A DNA stretch of 64,000 bases, from the NCBI RefSeq assembly GCF_000611675.1, contig NZ_JATV01000004.1, positions 124,001 through 188,000 of the forward strand, written 5' to 3'. The notes under the pieces were generated by a model. The model ran no database searches. It saw only the letters and a program-made list of their open reading frames with translations, and was not told the origin of the DNA. Positions 4,522 through 10,478 of this stretch are shown here, piece after piece. Within the stretch, counting starts at the first letter, position 1, and each line of letters begins with the position of its first letter. The position numbers were made by a program, and so were the translations under genes. The stretch is from Flavobacterium succinicans LMG 10402 (GTDB taxonomy: Bacteria; Bacteroidota; Bacteroidia; Flavobacteriales; Flavobacteriaceae).

Positions 4522-5574
4522 TTACACATCATCAAAATCCACACGAAGTGTTGAAGAAGTTGGATAAGCTTGACAACTTAGAATTAAACCTTCGGAAATT
4601 TCATCATCAGAAAGAATAGAATTTTTCTTCATTTCGGCAGTACCTTCGGTGATACGACATAAACAGCTGCTGCAAATTCCACCTTGGCAAGAATAAGGAG
4701 CATCGATACCTTGTTTAAGAGTCGCTTCAAGTAGGGTTTGTTTGGCCGACATTTCGAAAGTAGTTTCTTCGTCGTCTACCAATACGGTAATAGTAGTGTG
4801 ACCATCTACAGCTGCAGAAATGGTCTTTTCTTGTGTAGAAGAAGTAAACAATTCAAACTTAATAGCCGATTCTTTTACATTTTTCTCTTTTAAGATTGTA
4901 GAAACGGTTGTAATCATTTCTTCTGGACCGCATAAAAAGTACTTGTCGAAATTCAAAGCGGCGTGTTTTTGCGTAAGCACAGCATTCACAACCGATTTGT
5001 CAATTCGGCCAAAAAAGCCTTCTCCAGCGTGTACTTTGCTGTAAACATAATGTACGAAAAGACGTCCAACATATTGCAATTGCAAGTCGTGTAATTCTTG
5101 ATGAAAGATGGTTTCTTCAGGAGTTTTATTACCGTAAACCAATACAAAAGAACTTTTTGGTTCACTTTTTAATACCGATTTTAAGATAGAAATTACAGGA
5201 GTGATTCCGCTACCTGCTACAAAAGCAGCGTAGTTTCTTTGACGCTCGGCATCAGGAGTGAAGGTGAATTTCCCCTCAGGTTGTCCTACTTCGAGTACGT
5301 CTCCCGCTTTTAATCGGCTAGTGGCAAATTGTGAGAATAGTCCATTTTTTACCGCTTTTACGGCAATGCGCAACTCGCCACTTTCAGGAGCAGAACAAAT
5401 AGAATAAGCTCTGCGAATCTCTTGATTGTCTAGGGTTAAACGCAAGTTAAGGTATTGTCCTGCGGTAAAAGTATAATTGGAGGTAAGTTCTTCTGGGACA
5501 TTAAAAAGTATGGAAACGGCGTCTTTGGTTTCGCGTTTTACTTCTTTGATAAGGAGTTTTAAAAAGGATGGCAT
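4522..5574 (-). CDS. Ferredoxin--NADP reductase-like flavoprotein with C-terminal 2Fe-2S domain (PaaE-like)
   Basis: 350 residues, cytoplasmic. Order of domains: FAD-binding barrel with the RxYS motif (RRAYS, residues 54-58), NAD(P)-binding lobe with GSGITP (121-126) and CGPEEM (215-220), and a plant-type 2Fe-2S ferredoxin domain with cysteines 296, 301, 304 and 334. This arrangement matches the oxidoreductase subunit of phenylacetyl-CoA epoxidase (PaaE) and related electron-transfer proteins such as HCP reductases. It passes electrons from NAD(P)H through FAD to an iron-sulfur cluster and on to a partner. No paaABCD genes are nearby, so a phenylacetate role is not supported by context. A TATCTTTG box lies 17 bases upstream of the start. 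Confidence 0.88.
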   Translation of the reverse strand: MPSFLKLLIKEVKRETKDAVSILFNVPEELTSNYTFTAGQYLNLRLTLDNQEIRRAYSICSAPESGELRIAVKAVKNGLFSQFATSRLKAGDVLEVGQPEGKFTFTPDAERQRNYAAFVAGSGITPVISILKSVLKSEPKSSFVLVYGNKTPEETIFHQELHDLQLQYVGRLFVHYVYSKVHAGEGFFGRIDKSVVNAVLTQKHAALNFDKYFLCGPEEMITTVSTILKEKNVKESAIKFELFTSSTQEKTISAAVDGHTTITVLVDDEETTFEMSAKQTLLEATLKQGIDAPYSCQGGICSSCLCRITEGTAEMKKNSILSDDEISEGLILSCQAYPTSSTLRVDFDDV

Positions 5575-5598: not shown

Positions 5599-5648
5599 GC
5601 AAAGACCATAACTTTGATAGCGCAACCGATTGAATTTTTTATACCTAA

Positions 5649-5681
5649 TTTTGTTATGTATAAGAATCTTATGTATATTTG
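5649..5681 (+). promoter_or_regulatory. Promoter of the PadR operon with an overlapping palindrome
   Basis: TTTTG at 5649-5653 and TATATTTG at 5674-5681, separated by 20 bases, match the Bacteroidota -33 TTTG / -7 TAnnTTTG consensus. Between them lies ATAAGA-A-TCTTAT (5660-5672), a 13-base palindrome, flanked by direct ATGTAT repeats at 5656 and 5671. PadR repressors commonly bind dyads in their own promoters, so this is a good candidate autoregulatory operator; that last step is inference. Confidence 0.65.
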
Positions 5682-5715
5682 AATTTCAAAAACAGATTTT
5701 CTAATCCTTCAAAAT

Positions 5716-6051
5716 ATGAAAAACTCACAGTTATACAAAGGCAGTCTCAACACCATTATTATGAAGTTGTTGGAAGAAAATGGCAAAATGTATGGGTACG
5801 AAATTACCCAGAAAGTGAAGGCGTTGACGCAAGGAGAATTGACCATTACCGAGGGCGCTTTGTATCCAGCGTTGCACAAATTGGAAGCGGAAGGATTGCT
5901 TGATGTAGAGATAGAACGAGTAGACAACCGCTTGAGAAAGTATTATAAACTCACCGAAAAAGGAACTACAGAAACCGTTAATCGATTGGCAGAATTGGAA
6001 GATTTTATCCGAAATATGCAAAGTTTAGTGAATCCAAAATTAGAATTTTAG
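5716..6051 (+). CDS. PadR family transcriptional regulator
   Basis: 111 residues, a typical length for the small PadR class. The winged helix is easy to read: KGSLNTIIMKLLEENGKMYGYEI, then the recognition region ITEGALYPALHKLEAEGLL and the wing RKYYKLTEKG. PadR proteins are dimeric cytoplasmic repressors that respond to small ligands or to membrane stress. The start at 5716 gives the conserved KGSL at residues 8-11. The gene lies 35 bases after a strong promoter containing a palindrome and only 6 bases before the first of three membrane-protein genes, so the regulator and the trio form one operon. This PadR-plus-membrane-partner layout resembles that of PadR genes paired with HAAS-domain proteins in Firmicutes. 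Confidence 0.92.
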   Translation: MKNSQLYKGSLNTIIMKLLEENGKMYGYEITQKVKALTQGELTITEGALYPALHKLEAEGLLDVEIERVDNRLRKYYKLTEKGTTETVNRLAELEDFIRNMQSLVNPKLEF

Positions 6052-6057
6052 TGTGCT

Positions 6058-6663
6058 ATGGTAGTTTTAAATCAAGAACAAATAAGATTTATTGATGATT
6101 ATTTACAAGGTTCTAAAGTACGCTATGTCGATGTGCGTTCCGAATTAACAGACCATATCGCTACAGCTGTAGAACATAAAATGCAAGACGAAGCGCTGGA
6201 TTTTTATGAAGCTTTTAAAGCGTTTATGGCAGTCAATAAATCCCAGTTGTTACAGAGGAACAATGGGACTTTTGCTTATTTAAAAGAAGGTATTGTTAGT
6301 TTTTGTCCCACGTTATGGCATCCCATTACCTTAATTTTTGGTGGTATGATGCTTTTCTTAGGTTGGTATTTTGATTCGATTTTATCGCTACAAGAAATTC
6401 ATTACGCAAGTTATTTTTTGATTTTGTGTTTAGGATTAACGCAAAGAATGTACTTCTCTTTGGTGATGAAAAAACACTATTTACGATTAGAGTATTTGAA
6501 TTACGCTTTAATGACAATTTATTTTATAAGTGCTATGCTCAATGGTTCGTTTGATGATTTTAAAGGAAATGCTATAACGCTTTCAATAAGCATAACCTTG
6601 TTTTTTGCCTACAGTCGTTACGCTTTTGCTACTATTCAGAAATTTAAAACCAACCGAATTTAA
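6058..6663 (+). CDS. Membrane protein with N-terminal HAAS-like helical domain, paralog 1
   Basis: 201 residues. The N-terminal 70 residues are soluble and helical, with the pattern LNQEQIRFIDDYLQ...VRYVDVRSELTDHIATAVEHKM, shared with the next two genes. Four hydrophobic segments follow (about 84-104, 118-138, 147-165 and 172-192), so the protein should be an inner-membrane protein with its N-terminal domain in the cytoplasm. I do not recognise a named family. The layout (short helical domain plus several transmembrane helices next to PadR) resembles HAAS/DUF1700 proteins, but that link is by pattern only. Tightly coupled to padR upstream (6 bases) and paralog 2 downstream (9 bases). Confidence 0.75.
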   Translation: MVVLNQEQIRFIDDYLQGSKVRYVDVRSELTDHIATAVEHKMQDEALDFYEAFKAFMAVNKSQLLQRNNGTFAYLKEGIVSFCPTLWHPITLIFGGMMLFLGWYFDSILSLQEIHYASYFLILCLGLTQRMYFSLVMKKHYLRLEYLNYALMTIYFISAMLNGSFDDFKGNAITLSISITLFFAYSRYAFATIQKFKTNRI

Positions 6664-6672
6664 TTATTTACT

Positions 6673-7347
6673 ATGAAACTAACCACCGAACAAATTGATT
6701 ATATAGAACATACTTTAGTTAAAAATGGTCTTGATTTTGAAGATCTTAAATTTGAATTGATTGATCATATTGCATCCGAAATTGAAGTAAAAATGGCTAT
6801 TGAGGAAATCTCTTTTATGCCCGCTTTTTATATTGTTTTCGATACTTGGAAGGCGCAATTGAAGCCAAGTCAGAGTGCTGCTTTTTTAGGACGAAATTTA
6901 GTGGCTCCTAAAATTGTAATTGATCGATTATCTTCTTTGAAGAAAAGAGAACTTTTAACAGGACTCGTGTTTTGTTTTATAGTAACACTTCTGTTTTATG
7001 GTATGAGTACTATGCCAGTTTTTAGAACCGTACTGCATTATGTTGAATTAATTATTCTAAAATTATTTTTGCTAACTATTATAGTGCTACTAGTATCCAA
7101 AATGGTATTGTATCAATCAAAATTGAAGACAACTTATTCAGTGTTGTTTAATAAATCATTTTTATTATCTGTACCATTTTGTGTCATTATTAGCTTGGGT
7201 GGTTTTTCATTTTTCCGAACTGAAAATATTGAGAATATAAGAATAAGTGCAGTCGCAGCCACTGTTTTGTATGGTTTCTTTCTTTTTTCTTCAGCGCGAT
7301 TTTTATACCAACACTATCATTTTGTACAAAAAATTAAAAGAGTGTAA
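6673..7347 (+). CDS. Membrane protein with N-terminal HAAS-like helical domain, paralog 2
   Basis: 224 residues. The N-terminus MKLTTEQIDYIEHTLVKNG and the LKFELIDHIASEIE segment align with paralogs 1 and 3. After about residue 90 there are four hydrophobic segments (ELLTGLVFCFIVTLLFYGM; a long one around 115-145; SFLLSVPFCVIISLGG; ISAVAATVLYGFFLF). The membrane halves of the three paralogs have diverged strongly while the soluble domain stays alike, suggesting that the soluble domain has a common partner, perhaps PadR, and the membrane parts sense or bind different things. Function unknown. Confidence 0.75.
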   Translation: MKLTTEQIDYIEHTLVKNGLDFEDLKFELIDHIASEIEVKMAIEEISFMPAFYIVFDTWKAQLKPSQSAAFLGRNLVAPKIVIDRLSSLKKRELLTGLVFCFIVTLLFYGMSTMPVFRTVLHYVELIILKLFLLTIIVLLVSKMVLYQSKLKTTYSVLFNKSFLLSVPFCVIISLGGFSFFRTENIENIRISAVAATVLYGFFLFSSARFLYQHYHFVQKIKRV

Positions 7348-7349
7348 TT

Positions 7350-8057
7350 ATGAAACTTACCGCCGAACAAATAGACCAATTATATACATTCACACGCCAA
7401 CATTATGTAGAGTGGTATGATCTCCAAACCGAATTGGTGGATCATTTGGCCAATGCTATTGAGGAACAATGGCAAGAAAATCCAAAGCTTTCGTTTGATC
7501 AAGCCTTACAAAACGAATTCAAAAAATTTGGTGTTTTTGGCTTTATGGACGTGGTAGAAGGCAAACAACGATTTTTACAAAAGAAATACAATCAGATTGT
7601 TTGGGCTATCGTAAAGACTTTTTTTACGCTGCCCAAAATCATGGGAACAATTGGCGCCACTGGCTTACTGTTTTTATTGTTTCGTGAGAGTCAGTACAAC
7701 GGCGATTGGGTGTTGCTTTTCTATGGGTTATTGGTAGTTTTTGCTTTTTATGGAATGATTTCAAATCGGTTGAAACACAAAAAACAAATTCAGAATCAAG
7801 AAAAACGCTGGTTGTTTGAAGATATTTTACACCAACATGGGAGTTTTGCTGGCGCGATAGTTTTGCCACTAAATATTTTTTTACAACTCTTTAATCGAGC
7901 TGAACATTACTTGGATAATACATATCTTTTAGGTTTCGCCAGTTTCTTTTTGGTGCTTATGACTATTTTAATGTATGTTATCTTTTTTGAAATTCCTTCA
8001 CAGTCTAAAAAATACCTTTTACAAACCTATCCAGAATATTCTTTGGCTAATTTTTGA
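7350..8057 (+). CDS. Membrane protein with N-terminal HAAS-like helical domain, paralog 3
   Basis: 235 residues, starting two bases after the stop of paralog 2. The N-terminus MKLTAEQIDQLYTFTRQHY...WYDLQTELVDHLANAIEEQW repeats the family pattern, extended by FDQALQNEFKKFGVFGF, which resembles the amphipathic helix often found after HAAS-type domains. Four hydrophobic segments follow (about 92-112, 116-136, 162-180, 192-214). It is the last gene of the padR operon. The next gene lies 215 bases away behind an inverted repeat, so the DUF5687/ABC pair is probably transcribed separately. Confidence 0.75.
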   Translation: MKLTAEQIDQLYTFTRQHYVEWYDLQTELVDHLANAIEEQWQENPKLSFDQALQNEFKKFGVFGFMDVVEGKQRFLQKKYNQIVWAIVKTFFTLPKIMGTIGATGLLFLLFRESQYNGDWVLLFYGLLVVFAFYGMISNRLKHKKQIQNQEKRWLFEDILHQHGSFAGAIVLPLNIFLQLFNRAEHYLDNTYLLGFASFFLVLMTILMYVIFFEIPSQSKKYLLQTYPEYSLANF

Positions 8058-8163: not shown

Positions 8164-8271
8164 TCAAAAAATAAATAAATTTTAATTTATAAAAGTTAGA
8201 TTATCGATGATAAAACCTTGTAACGTTTTATATCTTTTGTTTACTTACTCTTCAACTAAACCCAAATAACT

Positions 8272-9732
8272 ATGTTTTTACGTTTTATTTACCTCGAGTG
8301 GAAAGCCTTTTTGCGTTCAGCTTCCTTTGGAACGAGCTTGGCGATGAGAATTTTAATGGGCTTTTTGATTGCTTATTTTACCTTGTTGTTTTTAGTGCTA
8401 GGCATTGGCGGTTTTTATGCCCTTAAGAAAATGAATTTAGACCCATTAGTAACGATTAATAAATTTTTGGTCTACTATTTTCTGTTTGATTTGGCCTTTC
8501 GATTAATGCTTCAAAAAATCCCAGTGCTCAACATTCGTCCTTTACTGGTGTTACCGATTAAGAGACCTACGATTGTGCATTTTTCTCTAGGAAAGACAGC
8601 CTTATCTTTTTTTAATATTTTGCACGCTTTTCTTTTTATTCCTTTGAGTGTCGTTTTGATTTATGAAGGGTATGATGTGGCATCTGTAGTGTATTGGCAT
8701 TTGGGTGTTTTTGCCTTGGTGTACATCAATAATTTTTTGAACATTATATTGAGTAATAAAGACCAATTATTTGGTGTTTTTCTTGCGATTCTTGCAGTGC
8801 TCGGTGGATTACAATATTACGGTTATTTTGATGTAACGCTATACAGTGCTCCGTTTTTTGAGGCTTTATTTCATACTGTAGGAGTGTTTCTTATTCCACT
8901 TGTAATCTTAGGATTGTTGTACTATTATACCTTTGTTTATTTCAAAAACGAATTATATCTCGATGCTGGTTTGGCAGTAAAAGGTGAAATCGCTAAAACC
9001 GAAGATTTTACTTGGTTGAATCAATTTGGAACTTTGGGTACCTTTTTAAAGAACGACATCAAGTTAATCAAAAGAAACAAACGTTCTAAAACAACGGTTC
9101 TTATGAGTGTGCTGTTTTTGTTTTATGGATTGATTTTCTTTGGCAATCCAACACAACCTGAAGTAATGTACATTTTTGCAGGAATTTTTGTTTCGGGTGG
9201 TTTTTTATTCACATTTGGCCAGTTTGTACCGAGTTGGGATAGTTCGTATTATCAATTAATGATGACGCAAAATATTCCGTATCGTGGTTATTTGAATTCC
9301 AAATGGTGGTTAATTGTAATAGCAACTTTTGCTTCTACGATTTTGGCTAGTTTCTATCTTTATTTTGGGTGGCAAGTGTATTTGACCATTGTAGCTGGTG
9401 CGATTTACAATATTGGAATCAATTCACATCTGGTGTTGTTGGGAGGGGCTTTTACCAAAACACCTATTGATTTAACCCAAAGTAAAGGTGCTTTTGGTGA
9501 CAAAAAAGCGTTCAATGTCAACACCATGTTGCTTTCGATTCCAAAAATGGTGTTGCCCTTGCTTTTGTATGCCTTAGGGAAATATTTTGGCGGACAAGCA
9601 TTAGGTTTGGCCCTTGTTGCTCTTGCAGGAGTGATTGGCTTTGCCTTGAGAAACTGGGTATTCCTTCAAATTGAAAAAATTTACAAAAGAGAAAAATACA
9701 AAACCATTGCGGCTTACAAACAAAAAAGCTAA
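8272..9732 (+). CDS. DUF5687 family protein (ABC exporter permease)
   Basis: 486 residues with about ten or more hydrophobic segments spread over the whole length. The N-terminus MFLRFIYLEWKAFLRSASFG and the central FLKNDIKLIKRNKRSKTTVLMSVLFLFYGLIFF are typical of the DUF5687 family of Bacteroidota, which resembles ABC-2 type permeases. It acts in the cytoplasmic membrane. The next gene, 50 bases downstream, encodes an ABC ATPase, so the two should form an exporter; the substrate is unknown. The ATG at 8272 gives a start just before the conserved FIYLEWK. The short spacer to the ATPase is a pyrimidine-rich stretch (ctaacctctaactttt) of a type also seen in the atpB-atpE spacer. Confidence 0.85.
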   Translation: MFLRFIYLEWKAFLRSASFGTSLAMRILMGFLIAYFTLLFLVLGIGGFYALKKMNLDPLVTINKFLVYYFLFDLAFRLMLQKIPVLNIRPLLVLPIKRPTIVHFSLGKTALSFFNILHAFLFIPLSVVLIYEGYDVASVVYWHLGVFALVYINNFLNIILSNKDQLFGVFLAILAVLGGLQYYGYFDVTLYSAPFFEALFHTVGVFLIPLVILGLLYYYTFVYFKNELYLDAGLAVKGEIAKTEDFTWLNQFGTLGTFLKNDIKLIKRNKRSKTTVLMSVLFLFYGLIFFGNPTQPEVMYIFAGIFVSGGFLFTFGQFVPSWDSSYYQLMMTQNIPYRGYLNSKWWLIVIATFASTILASFYLYFGWQVYLTIVAGAIYNIGINSHLVLLGGAFTKTPIDLTQSKGAFGDKKAFNVNTMLLSIPKMVLPLLLYALGKYFGGQALGLALVALAGVIGFALRNWVFLQIEKIYKREKYKTIAAYKQKS

Positions 9733-9782: not shown

Positions 9783-10478
9783 ATGATACAAGTACAAAAC
9801 CTTTCAAAATCATACAACGGAACCACCGTATTAAAAATAGATCAATTAGAAATTCCAAAAGGAGAAAGTTTTGGATTGGTCGGAAATAATGGTGCTGGAA
9901 AAACCACTTTTTTCAGTTTACTACTTGATTTAATTCACCCAACCACTGGTGCCGTTATTAATAATGGTGTTCAAGTGAATACCAGCGAAAGTTGGAAACC
10001 TTTTACGGGTTCCTTTTTGGACGAAAGCTTTTTGATTGGGTATTTAACCCCCGAGGAATACTTTTATTTCATTGGAGATTTACGCGGACAAAACAAAGCC
10101 GATGTGGATGCTTTATTGGCAAAACACGAAGAGTTTTTTAATGGCGAAATCCTAAAAAACAAAAAATACTTGAGAGACTTGTCTAAAGGAAATCAAAAGA
10201 AAGTTGGGATAATTGCGACTTTAATTGGCAATCCCGAGGTCGTTATTTTAGACGAACCTTTTGCCAATTTAGACCCAACGACCGTAAACCGATTGAAAAA
10301 AATCATCAAAGAATTGGCGCAAAATCCAGACGTAACCGTTTTAGTTTCTAGTCACGATTTGTTGCATACCGTTGAAGTTTGTAACCGAATTGTCGCTTTG
10401 AATAAAGGAGAAGTAGTGAAAGATATTCAAACATCAACCGAGACTTTAGCCGAGTTGGAAGCGTTTTTTGCGGTTTAA
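9783..10478 (+). CDS. ABC transporter ATP-binding protein
   Basis: 231 residues, a single nucleotide-binding domain. Walker A is GNNGAGKTT (34-42), the signature is LSKGNQ (133-138), Walker B is VVILDEP (153-159) followed by the D-loop NLDP, and the switch histidine lies in SSHD near 189. It hydrolyses ATP to drive the DUF5687 permease encoded just upstream. The short single-domain form and the pairing with one large permease gene fit an ABC-2 type exporter. Substrate unknown. Confidence 0.93.
   Translation: MIQVQNLSKSYNGTTVLKIDQLEIPKGESFGLVGNNGAGKTTFFSLLLDLIHPTTGAVINNGVQVNTSESWKPFTGSFLDESFLIGYLTPEEYFYFIGDLRGQNKADVDALLAKHEEFFNGEILKNKKYLRDLSKGNQKKVGIIATLIGNPEVVILDEPFANLDPTTVNRLKKIIKELAQNPDVTVLVSSHDLLHTVEVCNRIVALNKGEVVKDIQTSTETLAELEAFFAV

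Follow-up and report, generated by a model that had tools for sequence, protein, structure and literature searches.

One padR gene and an array of membrane proteins with a shared N-terminal domain in Flavobacterium succinicans: a candidate autoregulated cassette with membrane-tethered partners

What does a single regulator of the PadR family have to do with three membrane proteins encoded immediately behind it? The question is raised by positions 5649–8057 of a 64,000-nucleotide stretch of Flavobacterium succinicans LMG 10402 (contig NZ_JATV01000004.1, positions 124,001 to 188,000 of the forward strand), which is called the window below. This range starts inside the padR promoter and ends before a co-directional gene for a DUF5687 permease. 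The padR gene (5716–6051, plus strand) encodes a winged-helix regulator of 111 residues, a member of the PadR family (PF03551, 74.5 bits against a cut-off of 27, E = 6.8e-21) with relatives among the PDB sequences, e.g. 5h20_A (E = 1.1e-9 in a profile search). It is followed on the same strand by M1 (6058–6663, 201 residues), M2 (6673–7347, 224 residues) and M3 (7350–8057, 235 residues). The coordinates of the open reading frames (ORFs) confirm the intergenic gaps of 6, 9 and 2 bp given in an earlier note on this DNA, made from the sequence alone; padR and M1 are in the same reading frame. None of the M proteins matches a Pfam or NCBIfam model at the cut-off, and the nearest named relatives of M3 come from a Flavobacterium metagenome-assembled genome (93% identity) and F. 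succinicans DD5b (86%). With somewhat better than even confidence, we consider the locus best explained as an autoregulated PadR cassette with membrane-tethered partners.

The M proteins share an N-terminal domain, occupying about residues 1–69 in M1, 1–66 in M2 and 1–70 in M3. Its three profiles align mutually with hhalign probabilities of 99.0–99.7%, E-values of 3e-18 to 2e-25 and scores of 89–119, the top score of the controls, 32 windows from neighbouring protein families, being 19.7; in a single-sequence search of the same genome with M3 as the query, the likeness is weak (E = 0.009 and 0.05). The AlphaFold2 models of M1 (mean predicted local distance difference test score 88.6, 32 sequences in the alignment) and M3 (83.4, 75 sequences) agree in plan: N-terminal helices, at residues 6–18, 24–45 and 49–69 of M1 and 5–18, 23–43 and 49–91 of M3, precede four long helices at the hydrophobic segments. 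Hydropathy predicts four transmembrane (TM) helices in M2 as well. Hence both the shared helical domain and the common plan of a soluble part plus four TM helices, proposed in the earlier note, are borne out. Foldseek finds no counterpart of M3 or M1 in the PDB at E 0.001 or better, and a profile search of the PDB sequences with the M-protein domains yields nothing convincing; VIA-align 2 relates residues 75–235 of M3 to helical proteins with Z up to 8.8, the N-domain being barely covered. In charge counts over the alignments, lysine and arginine are abundant before TM1 and between TM2 and TM3 and scarce in the other two loops, while the C-terminal tail is positive in M1 and neutral in M3. This distribution across the loops supports placing the N-domain in the cytosol.

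The N-domain is also the more conserved part, its mean pairwise identity being about twice that of the membrane half (0.59 versus 0.31 for M3, 0.61 versus 0.30 for M1). Within the window the N-halves are 34–35% identical and the membrane halves 26–29%, the latter value being close to the mean of 0.26 for 162 neighbouring pairs of M proteins, a baseline formed by such pairs rather than by unrelated membrane proteins. Judging from these identities, M1–M3 are older copies.

The linkage of the N-domain to PadR is conserved far beyond the window. A search of 395 Bacteroidota genomes started from PadR gave 41 matches in 34 genomes, and a gene with the N-domain adjoins padR on the same strand at all 41 (39 downstream, two upstream). 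Conserved linkage to padR, the lack of which would have counted against the idea in the earlier note, is thereby supported. Among 149 genomes of the same family, the cassette PadR is present at E 1e-42 or better in 39 and M3 in 34, all 34 having the cassette PadR (Fisher p = 1e-28, a value that ignores relatedness); of the five PadR genomes without M3, two (G141 and G079) carry different M genes next to padR. The C-terminal part may be replaced. N-domains adjacent to PadR are fused to MacB_PCD plus FtsX (L325 and L333) and to GldL_N plus the N-terminus of GldM (L317); the partner in L324 consists of the N-domain and a GldL_N hairpin just below the cut-off; and the family search led to another PadR, whose neighbour combines the N-domain with an M23 peptidase (L224). 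These fusions, together with the identities above and the arrays described below, agree with the earlier claim that the N-domain stays constant as the membrane parts change. The N-domain may accordingly be described as the candidate PadR-contacting part and the membrane half as the candidate sensor, an assignment that we find somewhat more plausible than not.

For comparison of the arrays, 115 loci were fetched by means of M3 and five were dropped because they had no padR or no M gene (L068, L100, L127, L132, L143). The remaining 110, with padR and an M3-type gene, are the window, 33 regions from the family and 76 named loci; since L035 is the same as L139, 109 of them are distinct, and they come mostly from Flavobacterium or close kin and hence are not independent. 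One recognised M gene is present in 31 loci, two in 41, three in 22, four in nine, five in five and six in two. Even close relatives differ, with three copies in the window, four in L069 and two in L070. The earlier note regarded one PadR with three paralogs as the system: the tandem paralogs served by one PadR stand, but the number three is just one state of an array of one to six genes. The spacing is tight, the gap between padR and the first M gene being 12 bp or less in 97 of the 110 loci and that between M genes 12 bp or less in 117 of 146 cases, with overlaps in 59.

The last gene of the array is of the M3 type in 110 of 110 loci; the presence of such a gene follows from the construction of the search, its position does not. 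In a tree of 250 M proteins (those of 150 residues or less were excluded) the last-position genes form one clade with support 0.977, comprising 108 of the 109 and four upstream genes. By this tree M3 is one orthologous lineage, represented in the window by its resident last-position member, and the other M genes turn over; the nearest neighbour of M1 in the tree belongs to L135.

Neighbours in the array resemble each other mainly in the N-half. For the 162 neighbouring pairs, from which M proteins of 170 residues or less and pairs more than 1500 bp apart were excluded, identity averages 0.39 over the N-half and 0.26 over the remainder, and identity of 0.6 or more is reached by 19 pairs in the N-half versus two in the C-half. 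The identities of the N-half and the remainder are 0.94 and 0.26 in L061, 0.84 and 0.30 in L237, 0.95 and 0.41 in L075, and 0.97 and 0.63 in L084. Seven pairs selected from the ranked list of 162 were compared as DNA in blocks of 30 bases. In L061, L075 and L084 the identity is 0.87–1.00 over the first 180–210 bases and then falls abruptly to mostly 0.4–0.8, climbing again at the far end in L084; in L237 the drop is gentler, from 0.77–0.93 to mostly 0.4–0.7; L042 and L230 show a weaker version of the pattern; and L069 is a recent duplicate with high identity over a much longer stretch. In this minority of pairs, recombination or gene conversion seems to have preserved the N-domain and altered the membrane part.

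Might the array then have arisen mostly by tandem duplication and recombination, its copy number having little meaning? The range of one to six copies, its variation among close relatives and the recombination-like breakpoints would fit, and so would small ORFs of 80–140 residues, which we take from their sequence to be GIY-YIG-like and which could assist the process; they lie between tandem M genes in seven loci (L073, L078, L081, L083, L086, L090, L095). However, the frames stay open and the spacing stays tight or overlapping, the last-position genes form the single clade described above, and the clearest pairs break just past the N-domain. We consider such a largely duplicative origin very unlikely.

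The promoter region of padR carries two operator-like dyads, found by a search with the pattern TRYMTAAGN3YTTAKRYA. The dyad TGTATAAGAATCTTATGTA (5657–5675, plus strand) is exact and lies inside the promoter; the upstream dyad TACCTAATTTTGTTATGTA (5642–5660, plus strand) has two mismatches and shares 4 bp with it. The promoter-like element (5651–5681, plus strand) consists of TTG at 5651–5653 and TATATTTG at 5674–5681, as judged by what we take to be the Bacteroidota consensus. Matches with two or three mismatches occur in the window at the chance level (51 versus 48.4), and the weak dyad is accepted because dyad pairs 15 bp apart occur 39 times in 132 padR upstream regions (four of the initial 136 were unusable). 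A looser dyad precedes padR in 114 of the 132 loci, against 0.075 expected from shuffles, and in 111 of 129 when identical regions are removed; several distant families are among the 18 loci that lack it. The TAnnTTTG element is likewise seen in 114 of 132 regions, mostly 17 or 19 nucleotides past the start of the nearer dyad, and the full TTG-N17-23-TAnnTTTG in 12, versus 1.7 expected. Since the dyad covers the padR promoter in so many loci, autorepression by PadR at the predicted operator 5642–5675 is very likely.

The genes after M3 encode a DUF5687 permease of the ATP-binding cassette (ABC) type (8272–9732, plus strand; PF18940, 656.9 bits against a cut-off of 33, E = 3.7e-197) and its paired ABC ATPase (9783–10478, plus strand; PF00005, E = 4.1e-21). 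The M proteins could therefore be imagined as accessory subunits or local regulators of this transporter: 85 of the 110 padR–M loci are directly followed by both genes, one more has the permease at the contig end, and four end within 1.4 kb. Yet the other 20 loci, having 2 kb or more of sequence left, lack a transporter directly after the cassette (in one of them, L045, it is on the other side), as do the loci from other families (L207–L210, L212–L216), and DUF5687 is found in 111 of the 149 family genomes versus 39 for PadR. Moreover, at 20 padR-less loci hand-picked from the DUF5687 list, a ferredoxin reductase-like gene is upstream of the permease in 19: directly in 16, with a small overlapping ORF in one, and with a small gene between in two. 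In G127, of the same genus, the reductase-like gene and the permease are adjacent too. As the transporter and the reductase-like gene adjoin each other without the cassette, the latter occupies an optional slot, and the transporter is its usual neighbour rather than a constant part. A role of the M proteins in this transporter seems to us very unlikely.

The transporter genes have a conserved promoter-like element of their own just upstream, TGTAAC-N17-TACTTA at 8219–8247 (plus strand), kept with and without the padR cassette. Where the permease comes after an M3-type gene, TGTAAC precedes it in 79 of 90 loci (3.8 expected); of the padR-less loci, 17 of 20 have it (1.0 expected; this count used L260–L279 without L273, plus L228). 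The full TGTAAC-N17-TACTWA is found before the permease in 34 of the 90 and nine of the 20, and in none of 110 regions upstream of padR or 90 upstream of the ATPase gene. A direct action of PadR on the transporter promoter was considered and set aside: none of the 20 padR-less loci has a dyad in the 250 bp before the permease, and this different element precedes the permease with or without the cassette.

The following scheme would account for the cassette. PadR dimers bound to the tandem dyads would repress the padR–M1–M2–M3 operon. The three-helix cytosolic N-domain of each M protein may dock on PadR, and its four-TM half may sense the state of the inner membrane or a compound within it. On induction the N-domain could pull PadR off the operator, by sequestration or conformational release, so that the operon would be derepressed; read-through might then raise the DUF5687 transporter, otherwise expressed from its own promoter. 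One PadR serves one to six M proteins, in which the putative docking domain is constant and the membrane parts change, so the array may bring several inputs to one repressor. Both the signals and the sense of the response, namely release on induction, are our inference. A broader formulation is tentative, and we give it slightly less than even weight: in Bacteroidota a family of modular PadR-docking domains, apart in sequence from Pfam HAAS, may couple a single autorepressor to exchangeable sensors in the membrane or periplasm (four-TM, GldL/GldM-like, M23, MacB/FtsX). The tandem arrays would then be receptors with many inputs, in which gene conversion keeps the docking halves similar and the sensing halves diverge.

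If true, this would be signalling with one repressor and many sensors, without a kinase or a sigma factor, in several Bacteroidota families. It would also offer a natural system, with a constant docking half and a variable sensing half in one to six copies, for the switching of PadR by a membrane protein, a step that is proposed without experiment in the available part of PMC11237479.

Several observations weigh against the proposed scheme. The linkage test is not wholly independent, because cassette PadRs supplied the PadR model and a number of the tested loci contributed to the N-domain model; likewise, the dyad pattern was derived from the loci in which it was counted. Three of the 39 PadR genomes of the family have padR without any M gene (G044, locus L220; G132, L217; G145, L219), and one genome (G199, L211) contains an M gene but lacks such a PadR. 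Hence neither strictly requires the other. With 34–35% identity among the N-domains of the window, it is uncertain that all three meet PadR by a common surface. A wider PadR regulon was looked for and rejected: the exact dyad occurs at two places in the genome, the second inside an ORF, and with one mismatch there are 11 matches genome-wide versus 25 for the reversed-pattern control, hence no wider regulon is visible. Finally, 20 padR–M loci have no transporter directly behind them, and given the transporter's own promoter-like element, its control by PadR would be by read-through only and is uncertain.

The three genomes that keep padR without M genes also fit another explanation, in which PadR is an ordinary ligand-sensing autoregulated repressor of the LmrR kind, the M proteins are effectors that protect or remodel the inner membrane, and the N-domain serves assembly or anchoring. 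Other Bacteroidota families carry padR with M genes and no constant third gene was seen there, which would suit it as well, and in Listeria the cold phenotype of the LltR mutant is caused by overexpression of the DUF1700 membrane protein Lmo0600, as stated in the available part of PMC6624303. However, the conserved part of the M proteins is the cytosolic N-domain and not the membrane part; the N-domain remains beside PadR even when fused to unrelated C-terminal parts; and similar N-domains with divergent TM halves in one array fit a shared docking partner. We regard the effector explanation as unlikely and retain the reading of the M proteins as candidate partners of PadR.

What kind of domain is it? 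The earlier note saw a likeness to HAAS/DUF1700, and the comparison with PF08006 that it suggested gave no match. M1–M3 match neither PF22564 (HAAS) nor PF08006 (DUF1700) at E 1 in Pfam, and neither family is among the matches listed for 41 full-length members (25 of 89 families) or for 40 N-domains (25 of 35 families); PF22564 finds nothing in the genome at E 0.01. Comparison of the N-domain with Bacteroidota HAAS by hhalign remains at the control level, with scores of 9–18 against 14–20 for the best controls; these HAAS profiles contain Bacteroidota sequences only, and a deeper profile could still reveal a link. HAAS has a three-helix core whose third helix is kinked at a GxP motif; in the M3 model the third helix is unbroken in DSSP, with KFGVFGF instead of GxP. 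Membership in HAAS/DUF1700 is thus unsupported by Pfam, by hhalign with its 32 controls and by an NCBIfam cross-scan of ten canonical HAAS N-termini. Among the matches listed for the 41 full-length members, DUF1129 occurs in two (best E 0.028) and DUF2207_C in nine (best E 0.0014); because none of the 40 N-domains matches DUF2207_C in the families listed, the latter is taken as a likeness of the TM part.

A better candidate is provided by NCBIfam. NF038403, "permease prefix domain 1", is matched by 12 of the 40 N-domains scanned singly (best E 1.4e-5), each of the other 19 models listed being matched by one N-domain. In ten single scans, six match NF038403 in one register (protein residues about 17–66 to model positions 7–55), all below the cut-off of 30 bits; the top one, 22.6 bits with E = 6.7e-5, belongs to a four-TM M protein from L319. 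The N-domain of M3 from the window has no such match, nor does any of the ten HAAS N-termini. The nearest named domain found is NF038403, and the N-domain is probably a divergent relative of permease prefix domain 1; in the window it carries a four-TM half and not a permease. The fusions with MacB/FtsX match TIGR03434 (ADOP) at 3e-91 to 4e-88, still under its cut-off, and the best NCBIfam match of PadR itself is TIGR03433, padR_acidobact (71.4 bits, under the cut-off of 101.8). TIGR03433 and TIGR03434 genes are neighbours in Acidobacteria. With the scores for TIGR03433 and TIGR03434 and those listed for NF038403 all below the curated cut-offs, both halves point to the PadR/ADOP kind. If the cassette acts as proposed, a role as a PadR partner would be suggested for a domain that NCBIfam names by its place alone.

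As for known systems, the general arrangement of PadR with a helical-domain membrane partner is already published as the HAAS-PadR dyad, proposed as an alternative to two-component signalling (mSystems 2024, PMC11237479, in the part available). The present cassette resembles it, as far as that part describes it: a separate padR gene adjoins one for a helical domain joined to multi-TM or sensory modules, MacB/FtsX types among them. It differs in having no PF22564 or PF08006 match seen, no GxP and up to six tandem partners per PadR. The coupling of the partner to a stand-alone PadR, by which that system is defined, is found at 41 of 41 PadR matches here, with exceptions in 3 of 39 in the family sample. 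In the same part the domain fused to FtsX/MacB-type permeases is counted as HAAS; should it be the NF038403 domain, as we presume, the HAAS idea would be right at the superfamily level.

In Listeria, LltR strongly autorepresses the LltR-Lmo0600-Lmo0601 operon, which rises about 100–150-fold in the mutant (PMC6624303, in the part available, as for the comparisons that follow). There, as here, PadR is immediately followed by a multi-spanning membrane protein, the autorepression being predicted in our case; the Listeria operon differs in its single DUF1700 partner with a DUF4097 protein, in its host (Firmicutes) and in having no tandem paralogs. The dyad evidence supports autorepression of one local operon, as for LltR. 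The drug exporter systems LmrR-LmrCD and LftR-LieAB likewise link PadR to an ABC exporter; in these PadR is described as the drug-responsive switch of the pump (PMC6624303), whereas in the present case a promoter-like element of their own precedes the pump genes, and the membrane partners stand between. No description of the Bacteroidota array, nor experiments on it, appeared in the titles and abstract openings of the open-access papers listed.

Some further observations concern relatives and neighbours of the cassette. The second PadR of the same genome (L068, G000:C7:99500-116000) adjoins a membrane protein of 574 residues, whose N-terminus resembles HAAS-bearing proteins of relatives and falls under the PF22564 threshold used (E 0.01). 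The GldL/GldM-like fusions (L317:242–1489, minus strand; L324:3381–3806, plus strand) hint at a PadR-linked relative of the motor of gliding and the type IX secretion system. ADOP-like duplicated MacB/FtsX permeases with the same kind of N-domain stand beside PadR in L325 (3444–6071), L333 (3409–6108) and L334 (3402–6095).

Upstream of padR in the window is a divergent gene for a 2Fe-2S/FAD/NAD reductase (4522–5574, minus strand), which is conserved next to the slot whether or not the padR cassette is there. A secreted-looking protein of about 135 residues (..FKNETVEFLKxTGAGAAFENAI..) is often encoded in the slot before the transporter (L217, L219, L271, L277, also L055), including where the M genes are missing. 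Lastly, TGTAAC-N16-18-TACTWA has 12 exact sites in the genome (L280–L291), versus nine for the reversed-pattern control. Nine of the 12 are intergenic, six of them 25–66 nucleotides before a gene. We presume that these sites may belong to an extracytoplasmic function-type sigma regulon; the genes behind them include two ABC ATPases (L283, L287) and the DUF5687 permease.

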